64,000 nt of DNA from Eubacterium sp. (lineage in GTDB: Bacteria; Bacillota; Clostridia; Lachnospirales; Lachnospiraceae). Below the pieces are notes generated by a model. That model ran no database searches. It was not told the origin of the DNA and was given only the letters and a program-made list of their open reading frames with translations. The translations under genes were made by a program, and so were the position numbers. The stretch covers positions 1-64,000 of the forward strand of contig JAFZRN010000019.1 of assembly GCA_017619835.1 (NCBI GenBank). Direction: 5' to 3'. Positions 18,411 through 60,826 of the stretch are shown one piece after another. Numbering within the stretch: position 1 is the stretch's first letter; each line of letters begins with the position of its first letter.

Positions 18411-18445
18411 ATCATATCACCCAATGTATAACAAATGCGCAACAC
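18411..18445 (-). promoter_or_regulatory. 35-bp regulon promoter element, copy at 18.4 kb
   Basis: On the minus strand it reads GTGTTGCGCATTTGTT, 13 bases, TATGAT. It is aligned without gaps to four other copies in the window and precedes the small membrane protein gene. Confidence 0.8.
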
Positions 18446-18468
18446 ATTTTTGATATTTTTGCATTTTT

Positions 18469-21306
18469 TTACGGATTCAAGCCCTTCGGATTTTGATTTT
18501 TAGTATTAGCAGCGTCCAATCTTTTTGCCTGATTCTGCATCGTCTTCTCTCTATTTATACTTTCATTGAGATTTCCGGCAAATTTTTTCATAGTTTTCCT
18601 GATATCCGCAACAGGTGCATTTATATCTACGGCATCAACCAGAGGCTTGATCGTATCATTCAGCTTCTTTTGTCCCTCCTGGGTCCTGAGTCTTCCGTGA
18701 ATCTGTGGGATCGGCTTATAGGACTCATTTTGATACTTTGTATCAATCTTTATCAGATCGTCGCCTGTTATATCATTTCTCTCTCCGCTATATATCTGGG
18801 CTGCCAGGGTACCGTATTCTCTCTTAAAGTCCTGAGCAACCTTATTATTATTAACCTGCTCATTCCTGAACCTATCGTGGTTAACAGTAAGAAAATCATA
18901 GGCTATTATATCCTTGACACATGCTTTCTTTTCGGCTTCGCTGAGTTCTACATTGTTCTTGATCGCATTATCCAGCTTTTTCTCTGCATCAATACATTTA
19001 TCAAGATATTTTTTCATATTCATGGTGTCTTCATAATCCTGCTTAGTTTCGGGAGAAAGCTTTTTCATAACAGCATCATAAAGCTCGGGATCCTTTTTTG
19101 TGAACTCGACCATCCTGTCGAGAAGACCGATACCCATGGCATATCCATTTCTTCTTGAACCTGTAATGACACCGGTATGCATACATTCATAGATTTGTTC
19201 ACTGATACCTATCGCCATCATATCAATGAGCGGTTTTTTATCACCTGCCCTGTATTTATCGTAAGCTTCTTTAGCCTTGTCACGCGACGTTTTTATAAAG
19301 TCCACACCATAATGATTAATAGCGTTTTTCCTGGTTCCACCACTTATATCAAGCGTATACATTGTTCTTGCCTGGCTTACTCTGTCATACTTTGTTACAA
19401 GCGGACTCTTTGAATCCGAATGTCTGTTCACAATTTCATCAGTAAAATTGTTGTGATCCATTACAGCCGCATATGCTACCAATGCAAAGTCGTCATTTGA
19501 AATACCTTTACATTCAATCGCAGGACATGTTGCCTTAAAATTCTCATGACTATAAAGTCCGTTTTCAAAATGTTCGGGAATGAATACCGGCTTCTTCGAA
19601 TAATAATTCAGTATCTCATCAACTCCCTCATCATAAGTTCTCTCTGCTTTTTCATTAAGCATTGAAGCATAAACCACGGAAGTGCCTTCGATTGAATGCT
19701 TATTATGATATTCCTTGTTCTTATCAAATCTTTTACAGAGTTCGGAAATGTCTTTAGAAGCCGCATACCTGGTCTGGCCCATCCGTGTCTTGGGTTTCCA
19801 TGCCTTTAACCTCTGAACGACCGCTCTTTCCTGATCTCTTCTCTCCTGACTGTTTTCAGGAAGAGATTCGTCGATCAGCTCTGCCCTGAGGCGCTTTTCC
19901 TCAACAGATTTTTTTGCTTTGGTGTAATTATTGGATTTTGCCGAAAGATCACTCATGATCTTACCGAATTTTTCATCCTCGAATATATTCTTATCGCGAT
20001 TAGCCTTAAGGTATTTGATTGCTTCCCTTGTCTTATCCTTAAGCTCGGTCATCTCCCTTGAATCAAGCGCATCCTTATGGAGAGTACCGCGGTGCTTTGC
20101 CTGAAGCCCCTTCATCATCTTTTCAAGAGACGCGATCATATCATTTCTTATCCGTTCGTCAGGAAGGATCATGACGATCGGATTCTCTCTCTTGTAGGCC
20201 ATTTCCAGTGAGCCTTTAAAATGCTCGATCGTCTTTTCCATTTTTATGCCCGGATCCGGTTTAGCATACTTTTCATGTGTTTTGAAAATGGGTTTGAGGG
20301 AGTCAAGTGCCTTCTTCTTATCATTTGCGTCCCCAAGACGGGTATTCATAAATTTATTATATATATTTGTAATCTGTTTTTTATCTTTTTCAGGTAACTC
20401 TTTGGTAACATCAAGATCACACTTCATCTGATACAGATTATGGATCAATTCAAAATCATCCGGAGTCCAGCCATTTTCAAGAGCCTTAAGCTCCCTGTCG
20501 ACTGCGTTACTTCTGAGTCCGCCTACACGTCCTTTTACCCAGTCATCATAAGCCATGATGTTCGGAATATAGCTCCTTACTTCCTCATCGTTCGGAACCT
20601 GCTTTAGCTTACCAAGAATATCTTTTTGTCTCTGAAGATGTTCATAGGTGGCATTTATATAATCCTTGACCATCTTATCATCAACCTTACCGTTCTTCTT
20701 AGCCTTTAGGTACGGAAGCTGGATTTTATCCCTGTAATCCTGCCTATCCTCAATAAGATCAAAGAAGGGATATTTATCCATAAATTCATTATGTGCCTGA
20801 ATATCACGCTCCTTAACCTTTTCACCATTCAGCTTGGTCACCTCTTTTTCAAGAGGAAGCGGCATATCATTAAATACTCTTTCATACGTAGTATTTATCG
20901 TATGGCTGTCATTATATAGAATTTCCTTATCTCCGTTTGCAATCTGTTCCATCTGATGATAGATCATCTTCTTCATTTTGTAAGCATAGGAATTAATGTC
21001 GAGATCCTTTTTGATATTTGTATCAACAAGATTCATTAATTCCTTACCAAGCTTGTCATAGACTTCCAGCTCATTTTCGGGAAGAGGCGCATTATCATTT
21101 TTTTGCTTTGAGGTCATGGTAGCAGCTAGGAACTCGGTTGCTTTCGCTTCCATTTCGTCCTGCATATCTCCGAAAAGAACTTTTATCGAAATGACATTAG
21201 TCGCAAAATTCCTCATATCCATTTTGGAACTGGATCTCGGAAATCTAAAGGGGGTTTCAATTACTTCGAACTCATCCAGGTTATTCTCATCATAAACTTC
21301 TTTCAT
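18469..21306 (-). CDS. large MKEV protein with FAxxAYAA module
   Basis: This 945-residue protein has no family that I recognise. It begins MKEVYDENNLDEF, the N-terminal pattern shared with other proteins here, and has no signal peptide or membrane helix. It is highly charged and predicted mostly helical. The C-terminal third (from about residue 600) holds NDDFALVAYAAVMD, a long helical block and DPELYDAVMKKL. This aligns with the 823-residue protein at 44037-46508 (KDFAAIAYAAS, DPELMRLAFKNG). The last 50 residues are Asn/Lys-rich. It is the final gene of the 28.8-kb operon, 13 bp after the phosphatase gene, with GGGAGG before the ATG. A role as scaffold or exported effector is inference only. 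Confidence 0.75.
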   Translation of the reverse strand: MKEVYDENNLDEFEVIETPFRFPRSSSKMDMRNFATNVISIKVLFGDMQDEMEAKATEFLAATMTSKQKNDNAPLPENELEVYDKLGKELMNLVDTNIKKDLDINSYAYKMKKMIYHQMEQIANGDKEILYNDSHTINTTYERVFNDMPLPLEKEVTKLNGEKVKERDIQAHNEFMDKYPFFDLIEDRQDYRDKIQLPYLKAKKNGKVDDKMVKDYINATYEHLQRQKDILGKLKQVPNDEEVRSYIPNIMAYDDWVKGRVGGLRSNAVDRELKALENGWTPDDFELIHNLYQMKCDLDVTKELPEKDKKQITNIYNKFMNTRLGDANDKKKALDSLKPIFKTHEKYAKPDPGIKMEKTIEHFKGSLEMAYKRENPIVMILPDERIRNDMIASLEKMMKGLQAKHRGTLHKDALDSREMTELKDKTREAIKYLKANRDKNIFEDEKFGKIMSDLSAKSNNYTKAKKSVEEKRLRAELIDESLPENSQERRDQERAVVQRLKAWKPKTRMGQTRYAASKDISELCKRFDKNKEYHNKHSIEGTSVVYASMLNEKAERTYDEGVDEILNYYSKKPVFIPEHFENGLYSHENFKATCPAIECKGISNDDFALVAYAAVMDHNNFTDEIVNRHSDSKSPLVTKYDRVSQARTMYTLDISGGTRKNAINHYGVDFIKTSRDKAKEAYDKYRAGDKKPLIDMMAIGISEQIYECMHTGVITGSRRNGYAMGIGLLDRMVEFTKKDPELYDAVMKKLSPETKQDYEDTMNMKKYLDKCIDAEKKLDNAIKNNVELSEAEKKACVKDIIAYDFLTVNHDRFRNEQVNNNKVAQDFKREYGTLAAQIYSGERNDITGDDLIKIDTKYQNESYKPIPQIHGRLRTQEGQKKLNDTIKPLVDAVDINAPVADIRKTMKKFAGNLNESINREKTMQNQAKRLDAANTKNQNPKGLNP

Positions 21307-21319: not shown

Positions 21320-22891
21320 CTAATAATTCTTTCTGCCTTTATATGTAAAACTTAACATTGTCATGTCATCAAACTGAGGCTCAGTGTCCGAAAACTTATT
21401 AGCAGCCTCCTTAACGGCATCGATCAATGCCTTGTTATCCGATTCTTTGTTATCATTCAGAACCTTCAGCATTCTCTCGGTTCCGAACCTGTCCGAATTC
21501 GGAGCTTTAGCTTCGACTATGCCGTCAGTATACAGGAATATCCTGTCACCCGGCATCAGGTCAAAGCTCGTTCCCGGAAATGTCATCCCGGGCAGAAGTC
21601 CTACAGCAGGACCATGTTCCGTCTTCTCTATCGTAAAATCCTTACCCATCTTCATGATCGCAGGATAATCGTGGCCGGCATTACATACATCTACATGTCC
21701 CGTCTCAAGGTCAATGATACCGAACCATAGAGTTACAAACATTCCGGCCTGATTATCCTCTTCGATCTTCTCGTCAACAAATGTCACGATCTCCGATGGT
21801 GTTCCTCCCATCTGGGCGCGGGTTTTGATAAGGCTCTTTGATATAGTCATAAAAAGCGCCGCTCCCATTCCCTTATCGGATACATCCGCGATGAGGATTG
21901 CAAAATGTCTGTTATCGATCATAAAGAAATCATAGAAATCTCCGCCCACCTCACGGGCAGGTACCGTCTGGGCATATATATCAAAATCCGTCCTGTCGGG
22001 AAACGGAGGAAATATACTGGGAAGAAGTCCTGTCTGAATCTGTGAAGCAATCTCCAGCTCATTTTTCGTTTTTGCATAATCCTTGCCGCGGTCGGCTATT
22101 ACGATTCCGAAATTGATCAATATGGCAAGCATTATTGCCCCCGGCTTTGTAGATATCCCGAATTTGACATTAGTCAGGAACTCAGCCAGAAACGGAAGAT
22201 AGATAACCGAAGTTATCGTTATGATCTTTTGGATCGGTTCCTTGGATTTTATACACAGTTCTATCAGGCCCGGCACCAGGATGAAATATAAAAATGGTTT
22301 GAAGACGTAAAACGCTTCTCTTTTATATTCTCCCGACGAATCTACTGAAAAGAATATGGGGAGGAAAAAGTCCGCAATACAGATGATCATTACAACTATG
22401 AAGCCGATGTTGAAGGCCGCATTCGTGAGAGTCAGCAATCTGCTGCGGTATCTGAGCATCTTATAAACATAGATCCAGAACATATATCCGATCATATAGT
22501 AGCAGATATGAAGCAGCCCGTTTGATAAGATATTCAGCACGATAGTATCCGGATTAGACTGAACCAGCCACGCACATAGATCCAGGAAAAGCGCCGAAGC
22601 ACACGGGATAAGCATGGATATAAATACGACCATCTTTTCATCCGGTTCATCAACATCCATACTTCTCATACAGCTATAGTATATGATCGCACAGATGAAT
22701 ATCCCTATCGATTCGATTCCCGTACTGAAGGTCCATGTGGGATCCATACCATCAAAGCCACGGATCATCTGAAGGGCAAAACCCGCAACCGACAAGATCA
22801 ACACATATATGAACGCCCCAAATATAACCTTCGGGTTTTTCAGAATCCTGTCGATCAGAAAATTATGTAATTTACCGAGGTTTTTTAGCAT
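21320..22891 (-). CDS. membrane SpoIIE-type PP2C phosphatase (first)
   Basis: This protein of about 523 residues has a multi-helix N-terminal membrane domain (about seven segments to residue 265). A short coiled linker, ELEIASQIQTGLLPS, follows. The C-terminal PP2C domain shows AREVGGDFYDFF, ILIADVSDKGMGAALFM, CNAGHDYPA, FLYTDGIVEA and FDDMT, so the metal-binding aspartates are present. Such enzymes dephosphorylate STAS anti-sigma antagonists in partner-switching pathways. The N-terminal domain is probably the sensor. It lies inside an operon of modular MKEV proteins, and a closely similar catalytic domain occurs in the protein at 51714-53480. ATG at 22891 behind AAAGGGG is preferred to an earlier codon overlapping the previous stop. 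Confidence 0.85.
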   Translation of the reverse strand: MLKNLGKLHNFLIDRILKNPKVIFGAFIYVLILSVAGFALQMIRGFDGMDPTWTFSTGIESIGIFICAIIYYSCMRSMDVDEPDEKMVVFISMLIPCASALFLDLCAWLVQSNPDTIVLNILSNGLLHICYYMIGYMFWIYVYKMLRYRSRLLTLTNAAFNIGFIVVMIICIADFFLPIFFSVDSSGEYKREAFYVFKPFLYFILVPGLIELCIKSKEPIQKIITITSVIYLPFLAEFLTNVKFGISTKPGAIMLAILINFGIVIADRGKDYAKTKNELEIASQIQTGLLPSIFPPFPDRTDFDIYAQTVPAREVGGDFYDFFMIDNRHFAILIADVSDKGMGAALFMTISKSLIKTRAQMGGTPSEIVTFVDEKIEEDNQAGMFVTLWFGIIDLETGHVDVCNAGHDYPAIMKMGKDFTIEKTEHGPAVGLLPGMTFPGTSFDLMPGDRIFLYTDGIVEAKAPNSDRFGTERMLKVLNDNKESDNKALIDAVKEAANKFSDTEPQFDDMTMLSFTYKGRKNY

Positions 22892-22911
22892 AGCAAAACC
22901 CCTTTCTATCA

Positions 22912-25900
22912 TTAGATACTTTGAACTGTTCTATTCTGAACCGTTTTGTTCTGAACCATTTTCTTGTTTGACTTCTTGGCAAGATGCTCTCTGTTCTTTA
23001 TGGCATTTGATTTTATGATCTTGTTAATCCTGGTCTTGTTCTTCGCCATCTTTGCTATATTCTCGGGATTTGTAAAGGCCTTCGGATTCTTCTTTGACTT
23101 AAGAGACTTTTCGAATACACCCAGCGAAAGCTGCTTTTCCATAAATTCCTCAAGCGAAAGCCTCTTTCCGGTATTGGCATCTACCGGTGTCTTATTCCCC
23201 GCTGCACGATACATCTGACCGAAGATAGCATAGGCACTGTCTCTTACAAATTCTTTTTTACTGGTGTACATATCTTTTCCGAGTTCAAGACGTTTTATTG
23301 CTTCATCGGTTTTCTTGAGGAAACTTTGATTCTCGGCTTCAATCCTGATAGTTTCTTCAGCAGGGAAGCCTTCTGTGACCACGAGCTTTCCATGAGCAAA
23401 GTCAGGTTCATACTTGGTTTTTTTCATAAAGCTTCCGTCAAGCATCTTAGGAAGAAGTGGTTTAACATATTGAGGATTACTCTCAATAATCCCAAGTTTT
23501 GGGGCCAGGGCACTCGGAAGAGATCCGGTTACAAATCCCATCTGAGCATGATCTGCTTCATTAAACCAGTCATTCACATGAGTATTCATACTCATCTGTT
23601 TTTTCTGATCCATTATCTCCAGATTTCTTCTGATGATCTCTGTATTACCTATGACTTCTGACGTTGCGGTTTTTACAGTTGTCGGCGTTCTGGATGTGGA
23701 AGCAGTTATCGTGGCTTTCTTTAATCGTTCCATCGACTGAGCTATTTCCATCATCGGAGTCCATAAAACCTTTGCATCGTTCATAGTCCTGAAATTCGGA
23801 TCAGCCTGCTTTGCAATCTTAATATAATCTTCTCTGATGTGGAACATTTCCTGTTCAACATCAAATCTGGCTTTATACATATGCAGGAGCATAGTAAATT
23901 GTTTATCATGATATATATCTACATTCTTAAAATCCGTTTTCTTAACCTGTTCATCCAGCATTCCGTCAGTGACCTTACGTCCATCATGAATCCACCTTGC
24001 TACCTTTTCCCTATTTGCCGGATCGTCGCCATTTTTGAGGGTCTGGATCACCTCATCATACATAGCCTGCTTTTCTTCTCTATAGAATCTTGGATCCATC
24101 AGATCTTCAAAACTGTATTTTCCGGTAGCAGCCAAAGCCATGATCGCTATGGATGTTCCGGCAGAACGAGTAGTCGAAAACTTGTTACAGGGTACGCCAT
24201 GAATCGCTCTTGACTGTCTGTCTCTATATTTATCTCCATAAAATGCTTTATTGCTATCATTCGAAGGGTCCAAAGAATCATGTAATTTGAATTTATCTCC
24301 AAAAAATTCCTCGGTTATTTTATTTTCTGTGATATTCTCAGCCCACTCTATATTATGCAGGGTTGAAAGAAGAACCTTTTTCATCTTTCTTACACCTGCC
24401 ACCTTTTGTAATGAGGATGGTTTATCCAGATTATCCTTATTCATAAGATAATGGTCCGCAAGCTTGTTTACTTTATTGACAAGCTTTGTATAGTCAACTC
24501 TTTCCTCACCGCCTATAGGTCTGTCATCCATTGCAAGGGCCTTCGTATAATCACGAAGCTCCTTAAGAGCTCTTTTCATATCCCCGTAATTCCTGGAGCC
24601 GTTCAGAGTATCATTTTTCTTCACCATCTGATAAAGGTCATCTATCAGCTTAGCCTTTTCCAGAACAGAATCACGGCTGAAATCATTAAATTCTTCCTGA
24701 TCTGCCCAGAACGGATCATTTGCATTATGATGCCCCATTGCCAGATCTGCCATTTCGGCATTAAGCTTTGTTAACTGAGTTTCCAGCTCCGGTCTGCAAC
24801 CGGCATTTATGGTCTTAGCCATCTCTTTAAACTGAGCCGGGATTTCGATTCCGGACAGGGCATTGATTCCCTTCTGGGTCTCATGATCTGCAATCATGAG
24901 ATTATCTATCATGGTTTTGGGATTCTCAGAATTCACGATATTCCGATAGATATCCGACTGCTTGATCTTATCCATGTAAGCAGCCTTAAGAGCATCTCTC
25001 CCGTAAGGAACCGACATCAGAACATCAAACTCGGAGATCGTATTATTATTGATTATATAGGAGGCTTCCTCTGCCTTTTGAGAAAATATATTGTTCTGAT
25101 TCTGGGTATAACGATTCCAGTTATCATCAGCCTCAGTAAGGCCGATATTCCGAAATGTATTCTCACGGTTTTTCTGTACAGCCTCCTGATGCTGCTTTTG
25201 CTGAATGGAACCCATGTTGGCTATGATGCTGTCAAGAAGCATCTCACCGACGATCTCTTCTTTTTCCTGCCTTGTCAGTCTTCCGACATCATTTATCAGT
25301 CTCTGCTTGCTTCTTTCAGCAGCTTTAAGAGAATCCAGCTGTTTTGAATAGCTGGTAAGTTTCTTCTCATTGATATCAGTATAATAAGTTACTTTCGGTT
25401 CAACCCGAAGAGGTCCGTCTATTACGAATTCCTTACAGAATTGATAAGATTTTTGTTCAGGAGTCAGAGCATCAGAAGAAAGGCCTGCTGAAACCCCCAT
25501 GTTTCCGACCGAACTGGCAGTATAAGTTGCATAAGCTTCCAGGTAACCCTTAATCTTATTTTGTCTTCCATTTGCATAATCATTTATTGCTGCACTCACC
25601 CGGTTTAATGCAGTATTGAATACAGGATTGAGTCTTCCGTCAATCTGTCCGTTCGAAAAAACTTCGGTCACAAAGTATTTCTGAAGGTTTTCTATGGAAC
25701 CGGCCTCTTTTATCATATCCGGAACCAAATCCTGAAGAAGTGTTCTGTCCATAAGAGCGCCAATTACCGCTGCAGAGATCACTTCGCGGGAAAGACCGTC
25801 GGGAATCGGAAAATCATTATCCAGAGCATAAAAATCAGTGATAGGTTTATAACCCTGATCAGCCTTTTCGACCATCTCGTTTCTGCCCTGTCTGTAAAGA

Positions 25901-26215: not shown

Positions 26216-28750
26216 TTATCTTACATTCTCTCTTGCCTTTGGCTTACTTTTCTCAGCCGCCATTCTCCTATCATGAGCCATCTTTGCTCTTTCGGCTCCA
26301 TATCCTTTAGCGAATCTGTTTGCGTCCGAAAGAATATTGTCCTTTCGGACCTCATTGATCTTGTTCACTACCTTAATGACACTTTCGTTCATAGCTTTAC
26401 CTTCATGCCTTGTATATTTGGATACTATCGAAAGTGCATCCATAGAATTGGCAAATGCGTCATTGCCTTTATCCTGAATCCTTACGGTTTCTTTTCCTTT
26501 AACATACTTCTGTACGGCCATTACTACTTTTATATTTGCATTTGCAAAGGCATCCGCTTTTTGTTCTTCGGTCATACCTGCCGTCTTTTCATTCATTTCA
26601 GATGCCTCTTTGATAGCGTTGCAAAGTGCCGTGTATTCATTGCTTCTTCCCTTGGAGGTTCTCATGGAATCCTTAAGTGTATTCATATCCCGGACAAAAT
26701 CATCATATTTTCCGTTCTTAATTCCATACAGACCAACACGGATATTAACAGCTTCCCGGATCATTGATTTTTCGTCCTTGGTGGCATCCATAAGGCGCTC
26801 TTTACCACCCTTTTTAGTATCATAATCCGGATTGGTTTTGATGCAGTAGAATTCTTCTATCTCATTTGCGGCCTTGTGTATATCCTTAACACTGAATTTT
26901 TTACCTTCCTTCTTCAGTGAATACGCTGCTATGACCTTGGCGATATTTGTCTTCTTTTCACCAACGGTTTTTCCGGAATACTTACCGGAATGAAGTCTGA
27001 TATACTTATCAAAGCTGACTTCCGCAGCAGAATTCTTAAGAATGGAAACCGTACTTTCCAGATTTTCTGAAAGCTCATCCAAAGTGCCTATACGGTTTGA
27101 CTCTCCAGCTATTAATCCTTCGGTTTTTTCTGTAGACTTCTCAAAGGATTTACAATTCTTAACAGCCTTCTTAATAGCAGAAGCATTGGTCGCAAGCTGT
27201 TTTGTATATTTTTCCTTTAATTTATCATCCGATAAGCTCTCTGCCGCTCTTATCTTCTTATAGATTCTCTTATGTTCCATAAGCGAAGCAGCCAGCTTCT
27301 CATAACTATCCTTGGACTCATCCGGCTTCACATTACAGTCAGCCAGAGAATCCGAAAGCTTCTTCAGCGAATCATCTATAGATCTGATATAAGCATCATC
27401 ACCAACCTTTGGAAGGATGGTCAGCTTATTCAGCTTTTTTGCTTTCTCAATATATTTCAGTTTCAGATTTGCATCTTCTACTTTTGACAAATTGCCGCCA
27501 TCATTAGCCTTGGCATAAGCCTCAGTGATCTTTTCAGCATTTTCCTTCATCTGAAATATATTCTGCATGGTTTTAACCATCTTTTCAGCTGCTTTAAACT
27601 CAGAAGAATCTGTCATTCCTTTTTCTTTAAGATCCTCGTATTTATCAGCTGCATTATCAAACATTTCCCTCAGCGACCTGTCTATTAACGCTGCAGCATT
27701 CTGGGCACTTGCAGGATAGATTTGTTTTTCCGGTTTAACAAGTTTAGCCTCGACCTCTCGGTTCTTATCAGATATTATTTCCACCGATTCATACTTATAA
27801 TCTTTACCGAGGTGGGTAAAATGTTCAAGACAATAGCGTAAATCTTTATATGCTAATGTTTCTTTATCCGGCCAGTCAATGGAATCAAATTCCTTTAAAA
27901 GATGGTTAGCAACCTTAACCGTAGATTTGATCTGTTTTTCATAATGATCATGCTGATCGAGTAGCGCATTAAGCGAATCCTCAAGTGCTTCAAGTTCTTC
28001 AGCTGACTTGCAGGACTGCACTACCTTCAGATGCTTTGGTAAGTCTGCAAAAGGCGATTCACCCGGAGCAAGCTCTCCCTGCTTATACCTGAAGCCGAGA
28101 GAATTATGATAATCTCTGTTTTCGAACTCCTCCGTATAGTCAAGGGTTTTTTCGTGGGAAATGCCTTTTTTCTCCTCAATACTCTTATAAACTCTTTCGC
28201 TTGTCTCAACATTTATTTCCTGTGCTTTTTTACCGTTAATGCTCTTTCCTTCCAGAGAATTATTCAGAGTTCTATAGAAATGGACATAGGCATCAGAAGC
28301 TACACCATCATCCCTCATTACAAGATCATGGGCAATCTTCCTGACTGTTTTGGGTTCATCCTTTACAAGCTCAGTTCCCTTTACTTTGCCTCTCTTTATC
28401 TGTTCCACGTAGGCATCTCTTCTGCTACCGGCATCGTAAACCGCATTATAATATTTTTCCGAAAAGGCCTGCATGATCTGATTAAGAAAAGCAACGTTCT
28501 CCGGGTTTATTTCTTTACCCTCTTTCTTTGATTCTTCACCTTCCTTTACAGGTGACAGTTCCTTTAAAAATTTTTCGGTTTCTGAAAGGCGTGCATTTGC
28601 ACCTTCATCTCCCATACCGCCATTATAATAATCTTCATGAGCTTCGTAGATCATGTCAACAAGCTCGTTTACTTTACCCTCATCCTTCAGCTGACGAAGG
28701 TTAAGAGCAAACTGCTCGGGTGTTACATCTTTAAACTTTATATCTGCCAT
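26216..28750 (-). CDS. large helical protein, first gene of the 28.8-kb operon
   Basis: This 844-residue, highly charged and predicted helical protein begins MADIKFKDVTPEQF rather than MKEV. I recognise no domain. Its C-terminal third holds SMRTSKGRSNEYTALCNAI and VQKYVKGKETVR, which resemble the shared helical module of the MKEV proteins (a Y-[LVI]-x2-K helix followed by a basic turn). The last 40 residues are rich in Arg, Lys and Ala. It lies directly behind the promoter element at 28801-28835, with AAAGGAG before the ATG, and is followed after 13 bp by an MKEV gene. It is probably cytoplasmic or exported by an unknown route. Confidence 0.7.
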   Translation of the reverse strand: MADIKFKDVTPEQFALNLRQLKDEGKVNELVDMIYEAHEDYYNGGMGDEGANARLSETEKFLKELSPVKEGEESKKEGKEINPENVAFLNQIMQAFSEKYYNAVYDAGSRRDAYVEQIKRGKVKGTELVKDEPKTVRKIAHDLVMRDDGVASDAYVHFYRTLNNSLEGKSINGKKAQEINVETSERVYKSIEEKKGISHEKTLDYTEEFENRDYHNSLGFRYKQGELAPGESPFADLPKHLKVVQSCKSAEELEALEDSLNALLDQHDHYEKQIKSTVKVANHLLKEFDSIDWPDKETLAYKDLRYCLEHFTHLGKDYKYESVEIISDKNREVEAKLVKPEKQIYPASAQNAAALIDRSLREMFDNAADKYEDLKEKGMTDSSEFKAAEKMVKTMQNIFQMKENAEKITEAYAKANDGGNLSKVEDANLKLKYIEKAKKLNKLTILPKVGDDAYIRSIDDSLKKLSDSLADCNVKPDESKDSYEKLAASLMEHKRIYKKIRAAESLSDDKLKEKYTKQLATNASAIKKAVKNCKSFEKSTEKTEGLIAGESNRIGTLDELSENLESTVSILKNSAAEVSFDKYIRLHSGKYSGKTVGEKKTNIAKVIAAYSLKKEGKKFSVKDIHKAANEIEEFYCIKTNPDYDTKKGGKERLMDATKDEKSMIREAVNIRVGLYGIKNGKYDDFVRDMNTLKDSMRTSKGRSNEYTALCNAIKEASEMNEKTAGMTEEQKADAFANANIKVVMAVQKYVKGKETVRIQDKGNDAFANSMDALSIVSKYTRHEGKAMNESVIKVVNKINEVRKDNILSDANRFAKGYGAERAKMAHDRRMAAEKSKPKARENVR

Positions 28751-28800: not shown

Positions 28801-28835
28801 ATTATATCAACGAACGTGCAACAAAAGGGCAACAC
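28801..28835 (-). promoter_or_regulatory. 35-bp regulon promoter element, copy at 28.8 kb
   Basis: On the minus strand: GTGTTGCCCTTTTGTT, 13 bases, TATAAT. GTTGC recurs 11 bp later (GTTGC-N6-GTTGC). It begins within the T-run of the preceding terminator. Confidence 0.85.
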
Positions 28836-37088: not shown

Positions 37089-37123
37089 ATTATATCCGAC
37101 AAATAATAACAAAAGCGCAACAA
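37089..37123 (-). promoter_or_regulatory. 35-bp regulon promoter element, copy at 37.1 kb
   Basis: On the minus strand: TTGTTGCGCTTTTGTT, 13 bases, TATAAT. It follows directly on the T-run of the terminator ending the papain-like gene and starts the kinase/calpain operon. Confidence 0.85.
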
Positions 37124-37162
37124 AAAAAGATGACAAAAAAGTATACCATTTTTTGTCATCTT
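37122..37162 (-). terminator. terminator after the papain-like gene
   Basis: On the minus strand AAGATGACAAAAAA pairs perfectly with TTTTTTGTCATCTT across an 8-base loop and is followed by a run of T that touches the next promoter element. Confidence 0.85.
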
Positions 37163-43217: not shown

Positions 43218-43252
43218 ATACTATCATAGCAAGAGCAACATAAGAGCAACAC
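43218..43252 (-). promoter_or_regulatory. 35-bp regulon promoter element, copy at 43.2 kb
   Basis: On the minus strand: GTGTTGCTCTTATGTT, 13 bases, TAGTAT. Here the half-site repeats nearly perfectly as GTTGCTCTT at an 11-bp period. No terminator precedes it, so this is an internal promoter of the long operon. Confidence 0.75.
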
Positions 43253-51713: not shown

Positions 51714-53438
51714 CTATCCATTATATGTGAAGCTTAAGATTGTCATGTCGTCGAACTGAGGTTCATCTCCAGCGAATATCTTCACTTCATCGCTGATCTT
51801 CTCGATCATCATCTCATTACTGAGATTTTTATTGCTATTCAATACTTTAAGCATTCTCTCAATTCCGTATCTTTCTCCGTCTGAACGTTTTGCTTCATTG
51901 AGACCATCCGTATAAAGGAAGATACGGTCTCCGGGCTTAAGATCAGCCTCATAACCGACATGCTTTGCCCCGGGGATAAAGCCTACGGCCGGACCGTGAG
52001 GCATCTTTTCAACCTTATAATCCCCACCGGACTGCATTATGGCCGGATAGTCATGTCCGGCATTACATATATCCATATGACCGGATCTGATATCTATTAT
52101 TCCGAACCAGACTGTGACAAACATTCCCTGAGGATTTTTCTCGGATATGAGTCCATCGACGTATTCTATGATATCGGCAGCACTTCCACCCAGCCTTGCT
52201 CTCGCTTTGATGAGAGTCTTGGATATTGCCATGAAGAATGCGGCAGCAAAGCCCTTATCGGAAACATCTGCTATCAGAATAGCAAGATGAGTATCATCTA
52301 CCATGAAGAAATCATAAAAGTCTCCGCCAACTTCCTTAGCGGTCCTCATGGATGCTGCTATATCGAATTCTTTATAATCATCCAGAAGCTGATCCTTCTG
52401 GGGAAGCATTCCCATCTGGATCTTCGACGCAAGATTCAGATCTGACTCAATTCTCTGCTTATCCATCGTCATGGCTGATATATGTTCTATACGTTTTATA
52501 GTATCTGTCTCCATAATACTAATGGATTCTGCCAGACTGCTTATCTCATTTACTTTACATATATCAGCACTGAGACTTCCCTGAACAGGTGTCACATCCG
52601 TCTCACTTCCCTCTGCGAAACGCTTGGCCTCTTTAGCCATTATGTCGATAGGCTTTATTACCTGCTTCTTTAGAAAAATGGATTCGAGTACAAGTATGAT
52701 TATAATAGCTATTACTGAAAGAGCACTTGTACCCTGGATAAAGGTTCTTATTGTAAGTTCAAGCTCATCCGTATATCTCTGAACACAGAGTATTCCAACT
52801 ATATTGCCATCTTCATTTTTTAAGGGTGAAAGACCGGTTATGTGAGGTCTTCCGCTTCCAAGGTTATTATATCTCTTAACAATTTCAATCTTTGAATCTT
52901 TCTCATATATATTCCTGTATGCATCATAATACTCTTCAGGTGTCTCAACCCTTCGTCCCAACTCCCAGGGTTCGTATCCACTGTCGTCATTCACGCAGTT
53001 AAATATACAGGTGTAATTCTTATAATCACTATCCGGAATAATGGCATATATAACTGACATATTCATAGTATTGCATATTGTAGACAGCAATTCTTTTGAA
53101 CTTCCGTATACGGATCCCTTCAGATACAATTCTTTATCAAGCTCTTCCCCTTTTTCCTCGCACCATTCCTCATACTGGACAAAAGAAGTAAACGCATACA
53201 TCTTTTCCAGGTCCTCCTGGGTATACTTCAGAAATTTCTTAATATCATATCCGTCCATATAATCCAGACACAGCTCATTCACTCTGCTGACTGACTCTTC
53301 ATATTCCTTTGAAAAGGAACTGGTAAATGCAACATAGCCTATCAGCTGCACAAAGATAGAAAACATAATCATTATCAGTATTATGGAGCCTACGGTCATC
53401 GGATAAAGACCCATAAGCATATTTTTCAACTTTTTCAA
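51714..53438 (-). CDS. membrane sensor with SpoIIE-type PP2C phosphatase (second)
   Basis: This protein of about 575 residues has two membrane helices bounding an external sensor domain of about 220 residues, then a HAMP-like segment and a coiled linker (SDLNLASKIQMGMLPQ). The PP2C domain shows AKEVGGDFYDFF, ILIADVSDKGFAAAFFM, CNAGHDYPA, FLYTDGLNEA and FDDMT. It is a likely STAS-protein phosphatase driven by an outside signal. The longest frame starts at 53480, but GGAGG lies 7 bases before TTG at 53438, which is the better start. It follows the RsbW-like gene and precedes an MKEV gene. Confidence 0.83.
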   Translation of the reverse strand: MKKLKNMLMGLYPMTVGSIILIMIMFSIFVQLIGYVAFTSSFSKEYEESVSRVNELCLDYMDGYDIKKFLKYTQEDLEKMYAFTSFVQYEEWCEEKGEELDKELYLKGSVYGSSKELLSTICNTMNMSVIYAIIPDSDYKNYTCIFNCVNDDSGYEPWELGRRVETPEEYYDAYRNIYEKDSKIEIVKRYNNLGSGRPHITGLSPLKNEDGNIVGILCVQRYTDELELTIRTFIQGTSALSVIAIIIILVLESIFLKKQVIKPIDIMAKEAKRFAEGSETDVTPVQGSLSADICKVNEISSLAESISIMETDTIKRIEHISAMTMDKQRIESDLNLASKIQMGMLPQKDQLLDDYKEFDIAASMRTAKEVGGDFYDFFMVDDTHLAILIADVSDKGFAAAFFMAISKTLIKARARLGGSAADIIEYVDGLISEKNPQGMFVTVWFGIIDIRSGHMDICNAGHDYPAIMQSGGDYKVEKMPHGPAVGFIPGAKHVGYEADLKPGDRIFLYTDGLNEAKRSDGERYGIERMLKVLNSNKNLSNEMMIEKISDEVKIFAGDEPQFDDMTILSFTYNG

Positions 53439-53535
53439 AAGCATTCCTCCGTATATAGCAAATGCCACCTTAAGCCACATGCGCAGCCTATCGGTGGCAA
53501 TAAACTAAACTTACTATACTATGTTTATACGTTAC

Positions 53536-54018
53536 TTAAGTCAGGTTTTTCTTTATCCTGAGAATGTTTTTTCCATCTTTATATTCATAATCTACGTCAT
53601 CCATAGTATTCTTTACCAGATGTATTCCGAAACCGCCCGGTTTCTCAAGGAACATTTCACCTGATGTATCAGCCGCTTCAACCTTAAGGGGGTCGAAAGG
53701 CTTTCCGGAATCCATGAACTGGATCGTAACGGTCAGAGGTTCTTCTGCAACATCACACCTGATCTCTGCTTTTCCGACATCCGGTCTATACGCATAGGAA
53801 ATGATATTGACAAATATTTCCTCTACTGCAAGACGTATCTGAAGAAGAGGCTTCTTATCGCATCCGTATTTAAGAAGCTTTTCTCTTATAAAATCCTGTA
53901 CCGGATCCATAGCTTCATCCACTGCATCAATTGTAATGGAATTGCCATCCTCACTGATCTTATACTCTATTGATTGTTCAGCTTCTCCGAAGCTTCCCAG
54001 ATTAATTAATTCTGACAT
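53536..54018 (-). CDS. RsbW-like serine kinase/ATPase (HATPase fold)
   Basis: This 160-residue protein shows the GHKL ATP-binding motifs: RLAVEEIFVNIISYAY (N box), IQFMDSGKPFDP (G1) and KPGGFGIHLVKNTMDD (G2). This size and type match anti-sigma/partner-switching kinases that phosphorylate STAS proteins. With the STAS gene at 60859 and two PP2C genes it makes a full partner-switching set. No sigma factor is visible in the window, so its output may be another target. Confidence 0.82.
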   Translation of the reverse strand: MSELINLGSFGEAEQSIEYKISEDGNSITIDAVDEAMDPVQDFIREKLLKYGCDKKPLLQIRLAVEEIFVNIISYAYRPDVGKAEIRCDVAEEPLTVTIQFMDSGKPFDPLKVEAADTSGEMFLEKPGGFGIHLVKNTMDDVDYEYKDGKNILRIKKNLT

Positions 54019-54773: not shown

Positions 54774-57700
54774 TCAATCACCATCATCAGGCGGAGCGAT
54801 CGGCGTCGTCTGAGGATCAAAATTCTCTGACGGCTTTGCACTTACTATTATAGTATCTTTGATCGACGAATCTTCAGCTGATGATACTACAATCTTAAAC
54901 TGTGCGGATTCGCTGGTTATCTTAGGAATAATGAAACGGAACGAATCATCATACTTCTCAACCCAGTTAGCCATAAGATTGTCTGCGTTACCATCTATCG
55001 TGCCGGATGCCAGTGTAACCTTTAATTTAAAGCCTTCATCAGAACCATCGATAAGGATATATCCCGAAATCGAATCACCGGTCTCGGCAGATAACGACAT
55101 CAGTCCTCCGGATACGTTGCTTCCCGAATCCGTGTTTTTGGCAATATTGGTAGTAAGCGTAATATTCTTGGGTTCCGGTGTAGGTTCAGGTGTAGGTGTT
55201 GCCTCCGCCGTCCCCTCATTATTAACTGTAATAACTACCGTATCAACAAGATCCGGATCTTCAACACAGGTAACTACTATCTTATAAAGCTCAGTATCAT
55301 CAGATACTTTCTCTGGTATCTTAAGTGAGAAATGATACTCATCCGAAAGAGTAAGCAGATCCTTGGTAACATCGGTATCTTTATTCTTGGAAACCTTATA
55401 TGCTTTAGCCGTAAAGCCTTTGTCGGAACCTACGATAAGTACTGTTCCGTTGATCGTATCCTTCGGTAAAGCAAACATCTGAAGCGAACCACCGGTAACC
55501 GTTACGCCGGATTCATTATTTCTTGCAACACTTGTATTAAGCTTGATATCTTCTCTGCTTTCTACATTTACAAGTATGGTATCTATGATATCCGGGGCAT
55601 CTACAGGCGAAACTTCGATTTTGTAAACCACCAGACTTCCGGATGTATTCTTCGGTACCGTAAATGTAAAGTAGTAATCATCCGAACGGGTTATAGTATC
55701 CTTGGTGACATCCTTAGGAGCATCTCCTACCATAACGGATGCTTTTACATTAAAGCCCTTGGATTTTCCTATTGTTACCGTACCCTTGATCTTGTCACCC
55801 TTTTCACCAACGAGCGTAAGGAGATTATCTTTAACGGTAACAGCCGGTTTATTATTCTGCTGAATGCTCGTACGAAGAGTTACATCAAGCAGCCTTAGTA
55901 CATCACCATTATCAAGTCCGTCAAATGTCTGATTGATATTGTTTCTATCGATCACACGTGCTCCGAAACCGATATCGGCCGAAACACTGGTTATAGTCCA
56001 GTATGCCGTTCTGCTGTCTATTATCTTATCTGCAAGCTTTTCAGCCTTCTTGGTCGAGGTATCAGCCTCTTCTCCGTCACCGACAGAATCTGCAAGAGTC
56101 TGTTCTGTGGACTTATCATCCACACTCTCAGCCACCTGGGCATCTTCCTGCTTGATCTCAACATCCGCATTATAAGGAAGGATATCGATAGTATTTAATG
56201 ACAACTGGTCATTGATATTTTTAAGGAATACAACTACAGTCTGATTTTCACCTGACAGGAACTGTTTTGAATCGCTCTGAATATATGGACAGATATCCTC
56301 ATATTCAACTCTTTCCTTCTGCTCAACCTTCTTGTAGTCAATATAGTGGAACTTCATTCTCACTGCAGACTTGGTACTTCCGTCCTTAGTAGCAGTCGAA
56401 TCAGAAGTAGCAAATGTAAGCTTAACCGGAGCTATACTGTCTTTTCCATACGGAGTTTCAGACGTTCTCTTCTTCTTTTGAGGAGAATCCTTAAGTTCAT
56501 GTGTCTGATTAAATGCAGCGTAGCTTCTCTTGGATCTGGCTTTAGTTTCCATCTCACACGTAGCAACATTCAGCTCACGTTCATCTACCTTATATACCTG
56601 TGCTGCAGCACCGGCTATATTAGCTTCTATAGATCCGTATCCGGCTATATAATATGCCGTGATGTCATTTACAAACGGAACGTCATAATAGAGCTCCGCA
56701 TAGAGTCCTTCCGAAGTCTTCTTATATCCCTGATCCGTCAGATATACATACGGGGAATAATAAGTACCTCCATCCAGAGATGATCTGTATTCAAATGCAA
56801 CAGCCACATCCAGTTTCATAGGCTGAAGGATCTTTTCCTTCGTTCCGGCGTCAAATCCTATACCGATCGTCTCTTCGGTATAATCAATATCTTCCATATT
56901 ATCGGACAGGAAGCCCGAATTACCGCCGGTAGCTACTCCATCTATAAGATTATAGTAGTAATTACTGATAACCGTATCTTCTCTGACATGCTGAACTATA
57001 GCCTTATCGAAAGTCATATTACTCTTACAATATACGGTAAAGTCCTGAGCTCCGACAAAATCAGGTGCACTCACTCCCTTCACCATATACATGTCTCTGC
57101 CGTTAAGGTCCTTGGTAGCTTTAAGATCAGATTCGGCTATTACCTTATACTGTGAAAACGGTATATCATATCTGAAATTAACATTTACACTTGCACCGGT
57201 ATCATTCTTCGAACCATATGTAGGATAAACAAATATGTTGATCTTATCATCTGTCGAATCCGGAATCCTGGATACAGGTGTTGCCCAGTCATCAGTATCA
57301 TTCCAGATGATCTTGTTCGCTGTAAAGGTGATCGGACCGATATAATCCTTTCCTCCTATATCATAGGTTCCCTCTACAACACCGTTAATATTTCCTAAAC
57401 ATACTTTTCTGTATGCGATATTTCTGTAAAGCTCATTACTCTTTGTGAGCTGGATAGCTCCATCTTCGATAACCTGAAGAACAGATATGTTTTTTATACA
57501 CCACTTGGCCGCATGAGAACCAAGATTCTGTCCCGTAAACTTAATGCTTACAAGAGATTCAAGATCCGGAATCGCAGGAAGTATCATACGATCGGTATGA
57601 TTAGGTCTGAACATCCACTTTGAATCAGACAGAGTACCTAGTCCATCCTCTTTAACGATCTGAACATTTGGATTGGTTGCCGTTTCAATGGAGGCAACAT

Positions 57701-60700
57701 TAATACCCATGTAGTCGGCCATGCACTGGACAACATCTATCGTAACTAGCTCTTCCTCGTGAGTAACAGCAGAAATATAAGCAATCTCAGCCTTCATGGA
57801 ACCATAGAACGGATCAAATGTTCCGGACCACGGTTCGGCACTTATCTCACAGACAAGCTTAACATTTTTCTGTTTGTCGGTTACTCTGTAAACCTTGGAA
57901 AGCTCGTTTGCGACTCTTGCTTTCTGACCTCTCGGAGCAATACCCTCGATTTCATCGTGGTAATCGATATCTATCCAGCCTACATCTCCTATGATATAGG
58001 AAATATAGCTTCCTCCGCTGTTCTGTTCCGATACTGTTATCTTCTCTATATTGAGCTTATCAAAAGGATCCGAATCGGAAGATGTATCCTCGGGTATGAT
58101 CCTGAGTCCCTTAAGCTCTCCGTAATTCTGATTTGTAGCTATAGTAAAGTATTCGGTATAACCCGATCTGAAACCATCACTTGTGATCTGCTGATTTGCA
58201 AGAACATAACCACTGTTTCCATTCTTAAAGATCAGCTGGAAGTAGAAATGGTTTGTTGAACCCGAATCACCATCACCGGTATCATGATCCGAATCCTTTG
58301 CAACCTTTACCCCGACACTATATATTTTTCTCTTTTTAAAGAATCCCCAGTTGATCTGTGTCTGATCATGAGTCATTGTATATCTGACTTCAGAATACTT
58401 GGTGGTTCTGAGATCGACATCATTTTCAGTATCAAAATCTATCCTGTAGATAGTGTCCGGCTTTAACGTGATATCGGTATTGATCTTGACATCATCATCC
58501 GTATCTTTTTCGTCATCCGGTACCTCTTCAAGTATAGGATTATTATTCTCATCCAGCTCATACTCACCGGTTTCGGGATCAACCTTATATCTGTATTCTT
58601 TTTGTTTTTCTCCGTTATTATCTACTGTATTACCGTCTTCATCCGTTACCTTTGTCGGATTTCCGAGAAGACTGAATATCTTAACTGCAATCGCAGATCT
58701 TTCAACCCAGAAATTGGAAGTTGCACCTGCAGAAGTAACTGTAGTATTATATGCAGCTCTGGAATCATATTTTTCAAGATATGCAATCGTTAAATTGTGC
58801 AGGGTCCAGGAATCTCCGCCCATATTGACCTCGACACCCGTAAAGTCTCTCATATTATCCGCATCAATAATGAAAGACAGCTTTCCGCCTGCCACAAGAC
58901 CGGTTTCTTCAATAAAATCACCGTCGTTTACGGTTTTCCACTTACCCAGGTAATCGTCAGCAGCCTGCTTTATCTTATAGAGCGGAGTATATTTATTCGC
59001 CCCCTCCATATCCTTATAGCTGAAACGCATGCTTATATCTTTGCTGCTGCCGGCATTTTCAATATCACTGGTACTTACCGTTACAAGGAACTGATCTCCT
59101 CCCGGAGTATATCCGAGAATAGGTGCTTCAGCTTCATATGGATCAAGTCTTAAGGTATCGGTACCGTCGGCACGGATCTGATTTCCGTCCTCTTTGGTAG
59201 TTGTGTAATATTTTAAAGGATATTGATCCTGGAAAGCATAATAAAGCGTTGCGCCCTTAAGATGGTTTCCGTCACTGTCCGTTCCGCCAAGGGTATATGC
59301 CATACATCCGCCCTTATATACAGAGAATCCCTGAATCGAGATATCTTCAGATGCCGTACCGGACAAAGCCCTGCTCATCTTTGAAGTTTCTTTTGATATC
59401 TCTATTCCACCGGTATTCTTAACCTCTGTTCTGGCTTTAGTACCCGCCATTATCTTAACTTCGTCAACTATGGAAGCACATTCCGGAAGAACCGCCTGAA
59501 AGGCTATGGTGTCACCACGCTGTGCAAAACCAAGGATGGTGTCAGAGCTTGCGGTTTTTCTGGCCTGACCGTAGCTGTTCAGAATAACCGGAAGAGTTAC
59601 CTTTCTGTTCCATCCGTGAATATCCTTATACTGCACCATAAGAGACAGGTCTTCTACTATACCATTATCTTCAGTAATTGGTGTAGCAGACGAATTGATA
59701 AAGCTTTCAATTCCACCTGTTACCGTATCGGCAAAATCCATTCTGAATGAATAAAGGGATTCCTCGCCGGCATAATTCTTCTCCGGACAATTATCTTCAT
59801 ATGTATTGAGAACAAATTTACCCGAATCATGAGTCCCGCCTATTGTAGTCACGAAATCCATTCCGCCGCCGCTAAGTGCAGCACCGGTCTTCTTTGTGGT
59901 ATCCGCGATCATATATCCTTTAAAATCAAGGAATGTCTGACCTGAGATCATTCCATATTCTTCATATCCTTTATATTCATCAACCTTATAGATTGCCAGT
60001 CCCGAACAGCTGTAGGTACCCTGTTCGACATATATATCAATACTTCGTACTCTGTATATTGGAGCCTCAGTCTGGAAAGCATAGTCCTGTATAGTCCATG
60101 CTCCGAGAACAGCTGCTTTTCCGGGAGTTTCTTTATAATTCATTTCAGCTGCCATCTTTTTACCATAGGTAGCTGTGATATCTTCCTTGCTGTAGTAATT
60201 GAGGAATTTGTTACTCCTTTCATAAGCATCTACATGCGGGAATAGGAACTGGGTTCTTGTAATACCCTCGCGATCCATATATCGTATGGAAAAATAAAGA
60301 ACATTCTCACCTGCTGTTGCAGCAGTACATACAGAAAGCGAATAGGTATTTTCGGGAGCCTTAAATGTCTTCCTTACCTTCCACTCCTCCATATTTTTAT
60401 AAGCAGTATAGGTAGTAGTATCTGTATCCGGAATGACACTGTATGATTCTTCTTCCACTGCATCTGTTGCTGTGGAAATCAAATCATTACCAAGATCTAT
60501 AGGATTACCATTGATATCGGTTATCGTCCCATTATCTCCAAACGGATTATTCGGATTATATTCATCCAGACCATCTCCGGAATATGTTTCTGTACTTTCG
60601 ACAGAATTATAATCAGAGTCTGAAGGGGAAGACACATCAAAAACACGTGCAGCATTAACACTGCCGGAAACTCCGAATACAGACGGAGAATACGACAGGA

Positions 60701-60758
60701 TCATCATAGCTGCAATGATTCTTGCAATTATTCTTTTGGATTTATCACCAAACTTCAT
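54774..60758 (-). CDS. giant secreted protein with C-terminal Ig-like repeats
   Basis: This 1994-residue protein has an N-terminal signal peptide (basic start, IIARIIAAMMILSYSPSVFG, then a GSVNAA-like cleavage region). The bulk is a chain of beta-rich Tyr/Asp-rich domains that I cannot name. The last part has three tandem units of about 110 residues at roughly 55888-55560, 55551-55225 and 55169-54820. Each begins [LN]xTSIxxN or similar, contains G(F)xxK and ends in D-T-I/V-x-V. A TPTPEPTPEP linker separates the last two. No LPxTG anchor or membrane helix closes it. It is the first gene after the 60.8-kb promoter element, with GAGAGG before the ATG. An adhesin or secretion-apparatus surface part is possible. 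Confidence 0.75.
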   Translation of the reverse strand: MKFGDKSKRIIARIIAAMMILSYSPSVFGVSGSVNAARVFDVSSPSDSDYNSVESTETYSGDGLDEYNPNNPFGDNGTITDINGNPIDLGNDLISTATDAVEEESYSVIPDTDTTTYTAYKNMEEWKVRKTFKAPENTYSLSVCTAATAGENVLYFSIRYMDREGITRTQFLFPHVDAYERSNKFLNYYSKEDITATYGKKMAAEMNYKETPGKAAVLGAWTIQDYAFQTEAPIYRVRSIDIYVEQGTYSCSGLAIYKVDEYKGYEEYGMISGQTFLDFKGYMIADTTKKTGAALSGGGMDFVTTIGGTHDSGKFVLNTYEDNCPEKNYAGEESLYSFRMDFADTVTGGIESFINSSATPITEDNGIVEDLSLMVQYKDIHGWNRKVTLPVILNSYGQARKTASSDTILGFAQRGDTIAFQAVLPECASIVDEVKIMAGTKARTEVKNTGGIEISKETSKMSRALSGTASEDISIQGFSVYKGGCMAYTLGGTDSDGNHLKGATLYYAFQDQYPLKYYTTTKEDGNQIRADGTDTLRLDPYEAEAPILGYTPGGDQFLVTVSTSDIENAGSSKDISMRFSYKDMEGANKYTPLYKIKQAADDYLGKWKTVNDGDFIEETGLVAGGKLSFIIDADNMRDFTGVEVNMGGDSWTLHNLTIAYLEKYDSRAAYNTTVTSAGATSNFWVERSAIAVKIFSLLGNPTKVTDEDGNTVDNNGEKQKEYRYKVDPETGEYELDENNNPILEEVPDDEKDTDDDVKINTDITLKPDTIYRIDFDTENDVDLRTTKYSEVRYTMTHDQTQINWGFFKKRKIYSVGVKVAKDSDHDTGDGDSGSTNHFYFQLIFKNGNSGYVLANQQITSDGFRSGYTEYFTIATNQNYGELKGLRIIPEDTSSDSDPFDKLNIEKITVSEQNSGGSYISYIIGDVGWIDIDYHDEIEGIAPRGQKARVANELSKVYRVTDKQKNVKLVCEISAEPWSGTFDPFYGSMKAEIAYISAVTHEEELVTIDVVQCMADYMGINVASIETATNPNVQIVKEDGLGTLSDSKWMFRPNHTDRMILPAIPDLESLVSIKFTGQNLGSHAAKWCIKNISVLQVIEDGAIQLTKSNELYRNIAYRKVCLGNINGVVEGTYDIGGKDYIGPITFTANKIIWNDTDDWATPVSRIPDSTDDKINIFVYPTYGSKNDTGASVNVNFRYDIPFSQYKVIAESDLKATKDLNGRDMYMVKGVSAPDFVGAQDFTVYCKSNMTFDKAIVQHVREDTVISNYYYNLIDGVATGGNSGFLSDNMEDIDYTEETIGIGFDAGTKEKILQPMKLDVAVAFEYRSSLDGGTYYSPYVYLTDQGYKKTSEGLYAELYYDVPFVNDITAYYIAGYGSIEANIAGAAAQVYKVDERELNVATCEMETKARSKRSYAAFNQTHELKDSPQKKKRTSETPYGKDSIAPVKLTFATSDSTATKDGSTKSAVRMKFHYIDYKKVEQKERVEYEDICPYIQSDSKQFLSGENQTVVVFLKNINDQLSLNTIDILPYNADVEIKQEDAQVAESVDDKSTEQTLADSVGDGEEADTSTKKAEKLADKIIDSRTAYWTITSVSADIGFGARVIDRNNINQTFDGLDNGDVLRLLDVTLRTSIQQNNKPAVTVKDNLLTLVGEKGDKIKGTVTIGKSKGFNVKASVMVGDAPKDVTKDTITRSDDYYFTFTVPKNTSGSLVVYKIEVSPVDAPDIIDTILVNVESREDIKLNTSVARNNESGVTVTGGSLQMFALPKDTINGTVLIVGSDKGFTAKAYKVSKNKDTDVTKDLLTLSDEYHFSLKIPEKVSDDTELYKIVVTCVEDPDLVDTVVITVNNEGTAEATPTPEPTPEPKNITLTTNIAKNTDSGSNVSGGLMSLSAETGDSISGYILIDGSDEGFKLKVTLASGTIDGNADNLMANWVEKYDDSFRFIIPKITSESAQFKIVVSSAEDSSIKDTIIVSAKPSENFDPQTTPIAPPDDGD

Positions 60759-60791
60759 AATTATCCTCTCAAATTATCAGATGATATTTTG

Positions 60792-60826
60792 ATTATAGCC
60801 CCCCAGCAACAACAAAAGCGCAACAC
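60792..60826 (-). promoter_or_regulatory. 35-bp regulon promoter element, copy at 60.8 kb
   Basis: On the minus strand: GTGTTGCGCTTTTGTT, 13 bases, TATAAT. It lies 34 bases before the giant gene start. An A/T-only weak hairpin and T-run precede it, just after the STAS gene. Confidence 0.85.

Follow-up and report, generated by a model that had tools for sequence, protein, structure and literature searches.

A 64,000-nucleotide stretch of an Eubacterium sp. genome (Lachnospiraceae; assembly GCA_017619835.1, contig JAFZRN010000019.1, positions 1 to 64,000; hereafter the window) carries five copies of a 35-bp promoter element, each heading an operon in a block of genes dominated by very large proteins, many of them without a Pfam match (25 open reading frames, ORFs, of the window were scanned). 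The same element heads a type IV secretion operon that begins outside the window and runs into it, and recurs before scattered genes for large modular proteins elsewhere in this genome and in two relatives, which makes those proteins candidate effectors. Beside the secretion operon lie genes for a histidine kinase and a response regulator. Judged from sequence, the whole is very probably best explained as a two-component regulon that would serve a type IV secretion system together with an arsenal of modular candidate effectors.

All five elements lie on the minus strand, and in each exactly 13 bases part a conserved 16-mer from a TATAAT-like -10 hexamer, so that the coordinates and spacing given in an original prediction from the window alone are confirmed. 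The window has two exact matches to the consensus, as against 0.00 in shuffles, and a fuzzy scan (up to four substitutions in the 16-mer, up to two in the -10, spacing 12-14) returned the five elements and two poorer matches, one of which is the 28801 copy read one repeat out of register; as originally noted, none fell in the left 17 kb. The recurrence of GTTGC after 11 bp is real, with a second half-site of GTTGC at 28801 and 43218, of GTTAT at 37089 and 18411 and, beyond the forms anticipated, of GTTGT at 60792. The elements do precede first genes of transcription units, as had been proposed, but those genes are not all large, encoding 188 amino acids (aa) after 18411 and 287 aa after 43218. 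A terminator-like hairpin just upstream of the 37089 promoter fits a transcription unit of its own there; hairpins of this kind show no enrichment in this stretch (14 found against a shuffle mean of 11.5).

The original prediction had suggested a genome scan as its check. The window's own genome (G000; 2.75 Mb, 44 contigs) contains the window as C24:1-64000. Allowing three mismatches at most, a search of it for GTTGCnCTTTTGTT-N13-TATAAT gave 11 matches, and the reversed control 0. The matches comprise the five of the block, one at C24:72205 before the secretion operon, three on C15 preceding genes of 560 to 1072 aa, one at the C14 contig end and, probably by chance, one on C28 running antisense within an ORF. 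Because the genome holds copies beyond the block, one of them heading the secretion operon, the proposed regulon stands for the block, with its five copies, but is not confined to it, further copies occurring genome-wide and in relatives.

Among 200 genomes of the family, the own one included, orthologues of the response regulator at 69-72% identity are found in G160 and G002, and it is these genomes that are rich in the element. With up to two mismatches G000 holds 9 copies, G160 30 and G002 26 (reversed control 0 in G160 and 1 in G002), while the remaining 197 genomes hold 47 copies in 36 genomes, a mean of 0.24 per genome, beside 18 for the reversed control. A same-strand start lies within 200 bp of 57 of the 65 copies in the three genomes (8/9, 25/30 and 24/26 respectively) as against 8% of random positions, and the first gene encodes at least 500 aa in 51 cases by script, or 52 with the 1994-aa gene that is cut at a locus end (random 1.8%). 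Relaxing the threshold to three mismatches gives 80 sites (11, 38 and 31), of which 75 entered a context table; outside it are the C28 site of G000, the G160 C24 and G002 C7 sites, which look like background, the G160 C30 site, which may head a 927-aa ORF, and G160 C13:84393. A gene of at least 120 aa starts within 200 bp of 62 of the 75 sites; these genes have a median length of 917 aa, whereas for genes of at least 60 aa in the same stretches it is 307 aa (in the first-gene comparison the models of the 188-aa gene and of the gene after 60792 were set by hand). Shared segments connect 40 of these 62 first genes, and Pfam, run on 48 of them, recognised 11 families, each in at most two proteins, among them ADP-ribosylglycohydrolase, PI3/PI4-kinase, MBOAT and Ntox11.

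The link between element and secretion machine extends to named genomes. A search of GTDB genomes with an alignment of the regulator returned 223 loci, of which we retained the best 80, and revealed a close group (about 63% identity and up) whose titles name Lachnospiraceae, Eubacterium and some unplaced Clostridia, several of them mentioning rumen or omasum. Eubacterium ruminantium FB3002 and isolates NE2001, LC2019, AC2029, AC2031, YSB2008 and C6A11 belong to it, which, like the RUG and RUI genomes, we take to be of rumen origin. Wherever a close-group locus has a pilin match on its plus strand, a copy of the element stands 0-250 bp upstream (34 of 34 loci, one of which, L188, is G160's own), in contrast to 0/34 for the reversed pattern and 0/3400 for mononucleotide shuffles. 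A 945-aa window protein used as a probe of the named genomes found nothing. In two loci the element stands in tandem before the pilin gene, the copies 74 bp apart (L202:10911 and 10985; L204:10950 and 11024).

To describe the element we assembled 125 distinct sites (10 from G000, 36 from G160, 29 from G002 and 50 from named loci), setting aside 14 of a GTTGGAC type, and obtained the consensus TTGTTGCGCTT-TTGTT(GC or AT)gCtt, then TGnTATAAT. Columns within the search pattern are conserved through site selection, and it is the pattern-free columns that inform: TG stands ahead of the -10 in 89/125 sites and the seventh base after it is A in 90/125. The latter, an initiator at the level of sequence, accords with the predicted transcript start 6-8 bases after TATAAT. 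The claims of a canonical -10, here with a TG extension, and of a non-canonical -35 both held up; a consensus scan over stretches covering all five window elements called no sigma-70 promoter using their own -10, its one call overlapping 43218 having a different -10. A leading GTG, once read as part of the core, was not borne out: T precedes GTTGC in 90% of the 125 sites and the base before that is T in 57% and G in 32%. The second half-site is GTTGC in 59, GTTAT in 52, GTTAC in 9 and GTTGT in 5; GTTGC predominates in the first, where the search pattern partly accounts for it.

With the seventh-base A taken as +1, the repeats span -39 to -29 and -28 to -18, and in sequence such a pair of 11-bp repeats over the -35 region fits the geometry of SARP (Streptomyces antibiotic regulatory protein) and OmpR sites to within 1 bp, SARP sites (of AfsR, DnrI and ActII-ORF4 type) being the closest, with heptamer direct repeats at an 11-bp period overlapping -35. 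Published accounts describe heptamers with 4-bp spacers as typical of SARP sites (PMC5930380). They put the 3' repeat 8 bp from the -10 and give, for the AfsR box in Streptomyces, a centre of -29.5 and an upstream repeat spanning -40 to -30 (PMC10936776); here the corresponding distance is 9 bp and the centre about -28.5.

The original prediction had proposed looking for a response regulator gene near the locus, and a histidine kinase and a response regulator are indeed encoded next to the pilin gene, 8-11 kb beyond the window. The regulator model (predicted local distance difference test score, pLDDT, 91) has as its best Foldseek matches in the PDB the OmpR/PhoB regulators VanR, DrrD, DrrB and PhoP (about 230 columns, best E 1.2e-10), with TM-scores of about 0.3-0.5, low because the two domains are arranged differently; in VIA rows it is mostly the receiver that is covered. 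A profile of the output domain alone found DrrB (E 0.003), SaeR (E 0.04) and, weakly, AfsR (E 0.046). The predicted protein thus combines a winged-helix output domain of OmpR type with a receiver bearing the acidic pair, aspartate and lysine (D7, D8, D53 and K101, invariant in 29 aligned homologues), and in its own genome it is the single match to the output-domain profile. It resembles OmpR/PhoB response regulators (DrrB, VanR, PhoP, KdpE) in joining a receiver to a winged helix, and in the tandem 11-bp repeats known for PhoB, and differs from them in a Trans_reg_C match below the Pfam cut-off (E 0.086) and in a C-terminal extension after the winged helix that is conserved in the same 29 homologues. 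SARP activators share the OmpR-type winged helix, whereas here it is fused to a receiver, with a histidine kinase gene alongside, a Pfam scan at E up to 5 gives no BTA domain, the targets are a secretion system and not antibiotic clusters, and the host is one of the Lachnospiraceae and not an actinomycete. Together the genome scan, the nearby regulator and its best structural matches give comparative support to the predicted single PhoB/OmpR-type activator on 11-bp repeats.

What ties this regulator to this repeat is a second pair that varies alongside it. In the 39 loci of the close group we searched for a second repeat, GTTGGACATTTGTTGGAC with up to two mismatches, and counted a paralogous regulator as present if at least 180 residues aligned. 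The GTTGGAC repeat occurs in 12/12 loci encoding the paralogue and in 2/27 without it (Fisher 2e-8, the related genomes not being independent), one of the two exceptions being G002, whose paralogue lies on another contig; L202 and L204, with receiver-only matches of 119 residues, have no such repeat. Since the repeat type tracks the paralogue, GTTGCGC is assigned to the regulator near the pilin gene. GTTGGAC sites are found at L186, L187, L188, L191, L199 and other loci, with four in G160 (as at C22:15518) and two in G002 (as at C55:6290), and in five loci the repeat stands 49-88 bp before the regulator gene, which suggests a cascade in which the paralogue would drive the pilin-side regulator. 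The own genome has 0 GTTGGAC repeats and, by the output-domain profile, no paralogue. Further afield, 27 stretches around distant homologues (206 kb; L166 and L164, the latter with no regulator homologue, had been fetched for their repeats and were left out) gave 6 and 7 exact heptamer repeats of period 11 at gaps of 9 and 10 before a -10, overlapping sets from 6 loci, as against 0-1 at periods 9, 10, 12 and 13 with the same gaps. The heptamers vary by genome (GTTGTCC, GGAGTCC, CTTGCGG, ATTGCAC and others), and an association of KNQ recognition helices with GTCC repeats (3/3), noticed by eye post hoc, is not relied on.

With VirB4 and VirD4 ATPases and a pilin in one operon, the machine is a type IV secretion system. 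Part of its probable cargo shares a helical module at the C-terminus, about 270 residues long and bearing a basic tail, which was found 19 times in G000, G160 and G002 on otherwise differing large proteins. The module was defined from 11 promoter-led genes, and therefore just the 8 other matches test its link to the promoter: three are in first genes, two deeper in promoter-led operons, one 416 bp from a weak copy, and two have none. Against the PDB it gave no structural match at E<=0.001, which shows nothing either way. We regard this all-helical module as a candidate delivery domain and, because promoter, module and machine go together, the large proteins as probable type IV secretion substrates; the very large promoter-led ones are probably exported. 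A calpain-like protease and a PI3/PI4-kinase/Fam20C-like protein in a bacterium suggest eukaryotic targets.

From these sequences we infer binding, phosphorylation, activation, expression and delivery as follows. Each 35-bp element would be a sigma-A promoter without a usable -35, to which two phosphorylated response-regulator monomers would bind head to tail across the two repeats, recruiting RNA polymerase to TGnTATAAT for a start at the A seven bases downstream. The most likely activator is the regulator near the pilin gene, presumably driven by its neighbouring histidine kinase; it would turn on the secretion operon (pilin, VirD4, VirB4) and the scattered large modular proteins, and in some relatives the paralogous regulator on its GTTGGAC repeat would sit above it.

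Several observations weigh against this two-component regulon. Eight of the 65 copies lead no gene within 200 bp (two of these lie at contig ends), site 43218 is weak, and two of the 19 module matches lack an upstream copy. Among the ten loci with 48-56% regulator identity a pilin match is absent and two have copies of the element, 3 in all; of 69 distant regulators 27 have any such repeat within 900 bp and 12 one of good score. At 93% completeness, the sequence of the window's genome may lack a further regulator. G114 (C10, C12, C38, C58) and G121 (C43, C72) carry GTTGTAC and GTTGGAC 11-bp repeats before a -10 without a close regulator homologue; operators of this design may serve other regulators too. 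These two genomes, and a LytTR gene in a promoter-led stretch of C15, would favour a different transcription factor on the repeat, the neighbouring response regulator controlling something else. We consider this distinctly unlikely, given that the regulator is the sole own-genome protein found with its output domain, is encoded near the pilin promoter in close-group loci holding both, belongs to a fold class that binds 11-bp repeats, and has a paralogue that the repeat type follows wherever it is encoded. LytTR-type sites themselves were set aside, their repeat spacing being different. Chance origin of the elements was ruled out by the shuffle, reversed-pattern and pilin-locus controls.

The partner-switching proteins of the block (SpoIIE, HATPase and STAS), taken with the missing canonical -35, might instead point to an alternative sigma factor freed by them and reading the element as its promoter. 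That is very improbable: the -10 is canonical and extended and the initiator ordinary, the halves of the tandem repeat change together between genomes, unlike a sigma -35, and no sigma family appears among the Pfam-scanned genes, a search that did not span the whole genome. That the secretion system is part of an integrative conjugative element (ICE), its promoter serving transfer control and the cargo genes along for the ride, we judge unlikely. The VirB4, VirD4, pilin and transmembrane parts do match ICE-type systems of mycoplasmas and Clostridia (Mbov_0395-0397 for VirB4, which is below the NCBIfam model cut-off, the pilin and the transmembrane protein; CD1110/CD1115, VirD4 being of the CD1115 family), and relaxases are present in G000 and G002. 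These relaxases (PF03432, other relaxase families not having been tested) lie on other contigs, however, and G160 has none despite having the system; no integrase was found among the Pfam-scanned genes, a part of all genes; and the promoter element is common to dozens of large genes, its copies (up to two mismatches) spreading over 21 contigs in G160. Nor do the copies look like duplicates of one mobile promoter cassette, whose number would say nothing of regulation. Two C15 copies are somewhat alike beyond the element, but the long common flanks that a cassette predicts are absent from most copies: apart from the initiator, what the 125 sites have in common outside the element is mainly an A/T bias, and the flanks of the 34 pilin sites hold 0.45 and 0.39 bits only (the repeat columns reach 1.62 bits, a figure inflated because the sites were selected by those columns, and not relied on). 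We find this explanation hardly credible.

If the two-component regulon is accepted, its promoter becomes a sequence barcode that lists likely type IV secretion substrates in gut bacteria, named isolates among them. Boxes such as hrp, tts and PmrA/CpxR also mark a secretion apparatus together with dispersed effector genes, in their case for type III or IVB secretion in diderm bacteria; in the present case, where the dispersed genes encode candidate effectors, the system is of type IV, its hosts are Lachnospiraceae and the operator is SARP-like. No such effector regulon was found in the literature, as judged by titles and the beginnings of abstracts, mostly of top-ranked matches only. The range of SARP-like operators would thereby widen from antibiotic control in actinomycetes and take in the receiver-linked regulators of Lachnospiraceae and of some other Clostridia, and two regulator paralogues paired with two repeat sequences make recognition and the order of the cascade directly testable. 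More tentatively, and at slightly less than even chances, rumen Lachnospiraceae might practise type IV protein delivery against rumen ciliates, fungi or competing bacteria. The arsenal would be large, quickly changing and made up of modular effectors, some of them with domains of eukaryotic kind (PI3/PI4-kinase-like, calpain-like, ADP-ribosylglycohydrolase); SARP-like response regulators, each with its own heptamer repeat, would control it in a cascade of two tiers, and the promoter alone would identify it. Should delivery prove real, these bacteria would have a new means of interacting with their neighbours, protozoa perhaps among them.

Table. Features of the window and of the adjoining part of contig C24 (positions prefixed C24 are contig coordinates)
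Feature	Position	Strand	Remarks
Regulon promoter (predicted)	60792..60826	-	GTTGC 11-bp direct repeat, 13 bp, TATAAT; before 1994-aa gene
Regulon promoter (predicted)	43218..43252	-	Weakest copy, 3 mismatches; before 287-aa gene, then 679- and 1017-aa genes
Regulon promoter (predicted)	37089..37123	-	Before 737-aa kinase-like gene and large genes downstream
Regulon promoter (predicted)	28801..28835	-	Before 844-aa gene with shared C-terminal module and later genes
Regulon promoter (predicted)	18411..18445	-	Before 188-aa gene
Terminator-like hairpin	37127..37162	-	14 pairs, T-tail; ends 3 bases before promoter 37089-37123
Response regulator	C24:74195-74989	as window block	Receiver and OmpR/SARP-type winged helix; 2 kb from pilin promoter
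Hydrophobic protein	C24, between kinase and regulator	as window block	
Histidine kinase	C24:72264-73484	as window block	
Type IV pilin	C24:71673-72179	as window block	Promoter copy C24:72205-72237 just upstream, outside window
VirD4	C24:69479-71500	as window block	NCBIfam CD1115 family
Two further proteins	C24, between VirB4 and VirD4	as window block	
VirB4-type secretion ATPase, 1528 aa	61171..64000, on to C24:65757	-	Operon led by copy C24:72205-72237
STAS-domain protein, 100 aa	60859..61161	-	Last secretion-operon gene ahead of promoter 60792
1994-aa protein	54774..60758	-	Weak PLAT match; first gene after promoter 60792
HATPase_c_2 protein	53536..54018	-	Anti-sigma-kinase-like
SpoIIE-type phosphatase	51714..53480	-	
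287-aa protein	42309..43172	-	First gene after promoter 43218
1017-aa candidate effector	37170..40223	-	Similar stretches in a promoter-led G002 gene and close-group loci
737-aa protein	34712..36925	-	PI3/PI4-kinase and Fam20C-like match (Fam20C below cut-off)
951-aa protein	31812..34667	-	Calpain-family protease match
973-aa candidate effector	28875..31796	-	Similar genes in G002
844-aa candidate effector	26216..28750	-	
Shared C-terminal helical module, basic tail	26219..27043	-	19 matches in three genomes, 2 partial
SpoIIE-type phosphatase	21320..22912	-	
188-aa protein	17816..18382	-	First gene after promoter 18411

Some further features of these operons deserve mention. The 737-aa protein is similar to promoter-led genes in both relatives. 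A third SpoIIE phosphatase (C24:77055-78578) joins the two of the window, the single HATPase and the single STAS protein, a set that may form a partner-switching circuit acting on the secretion system. A promoter-led stretch of C15 encodes a 1283-aa protein with an Ntox11 toxin-family match (L013:7952-11803) and, besides the LytTR gene product, also a Big_2 protein and a CAAX protease.

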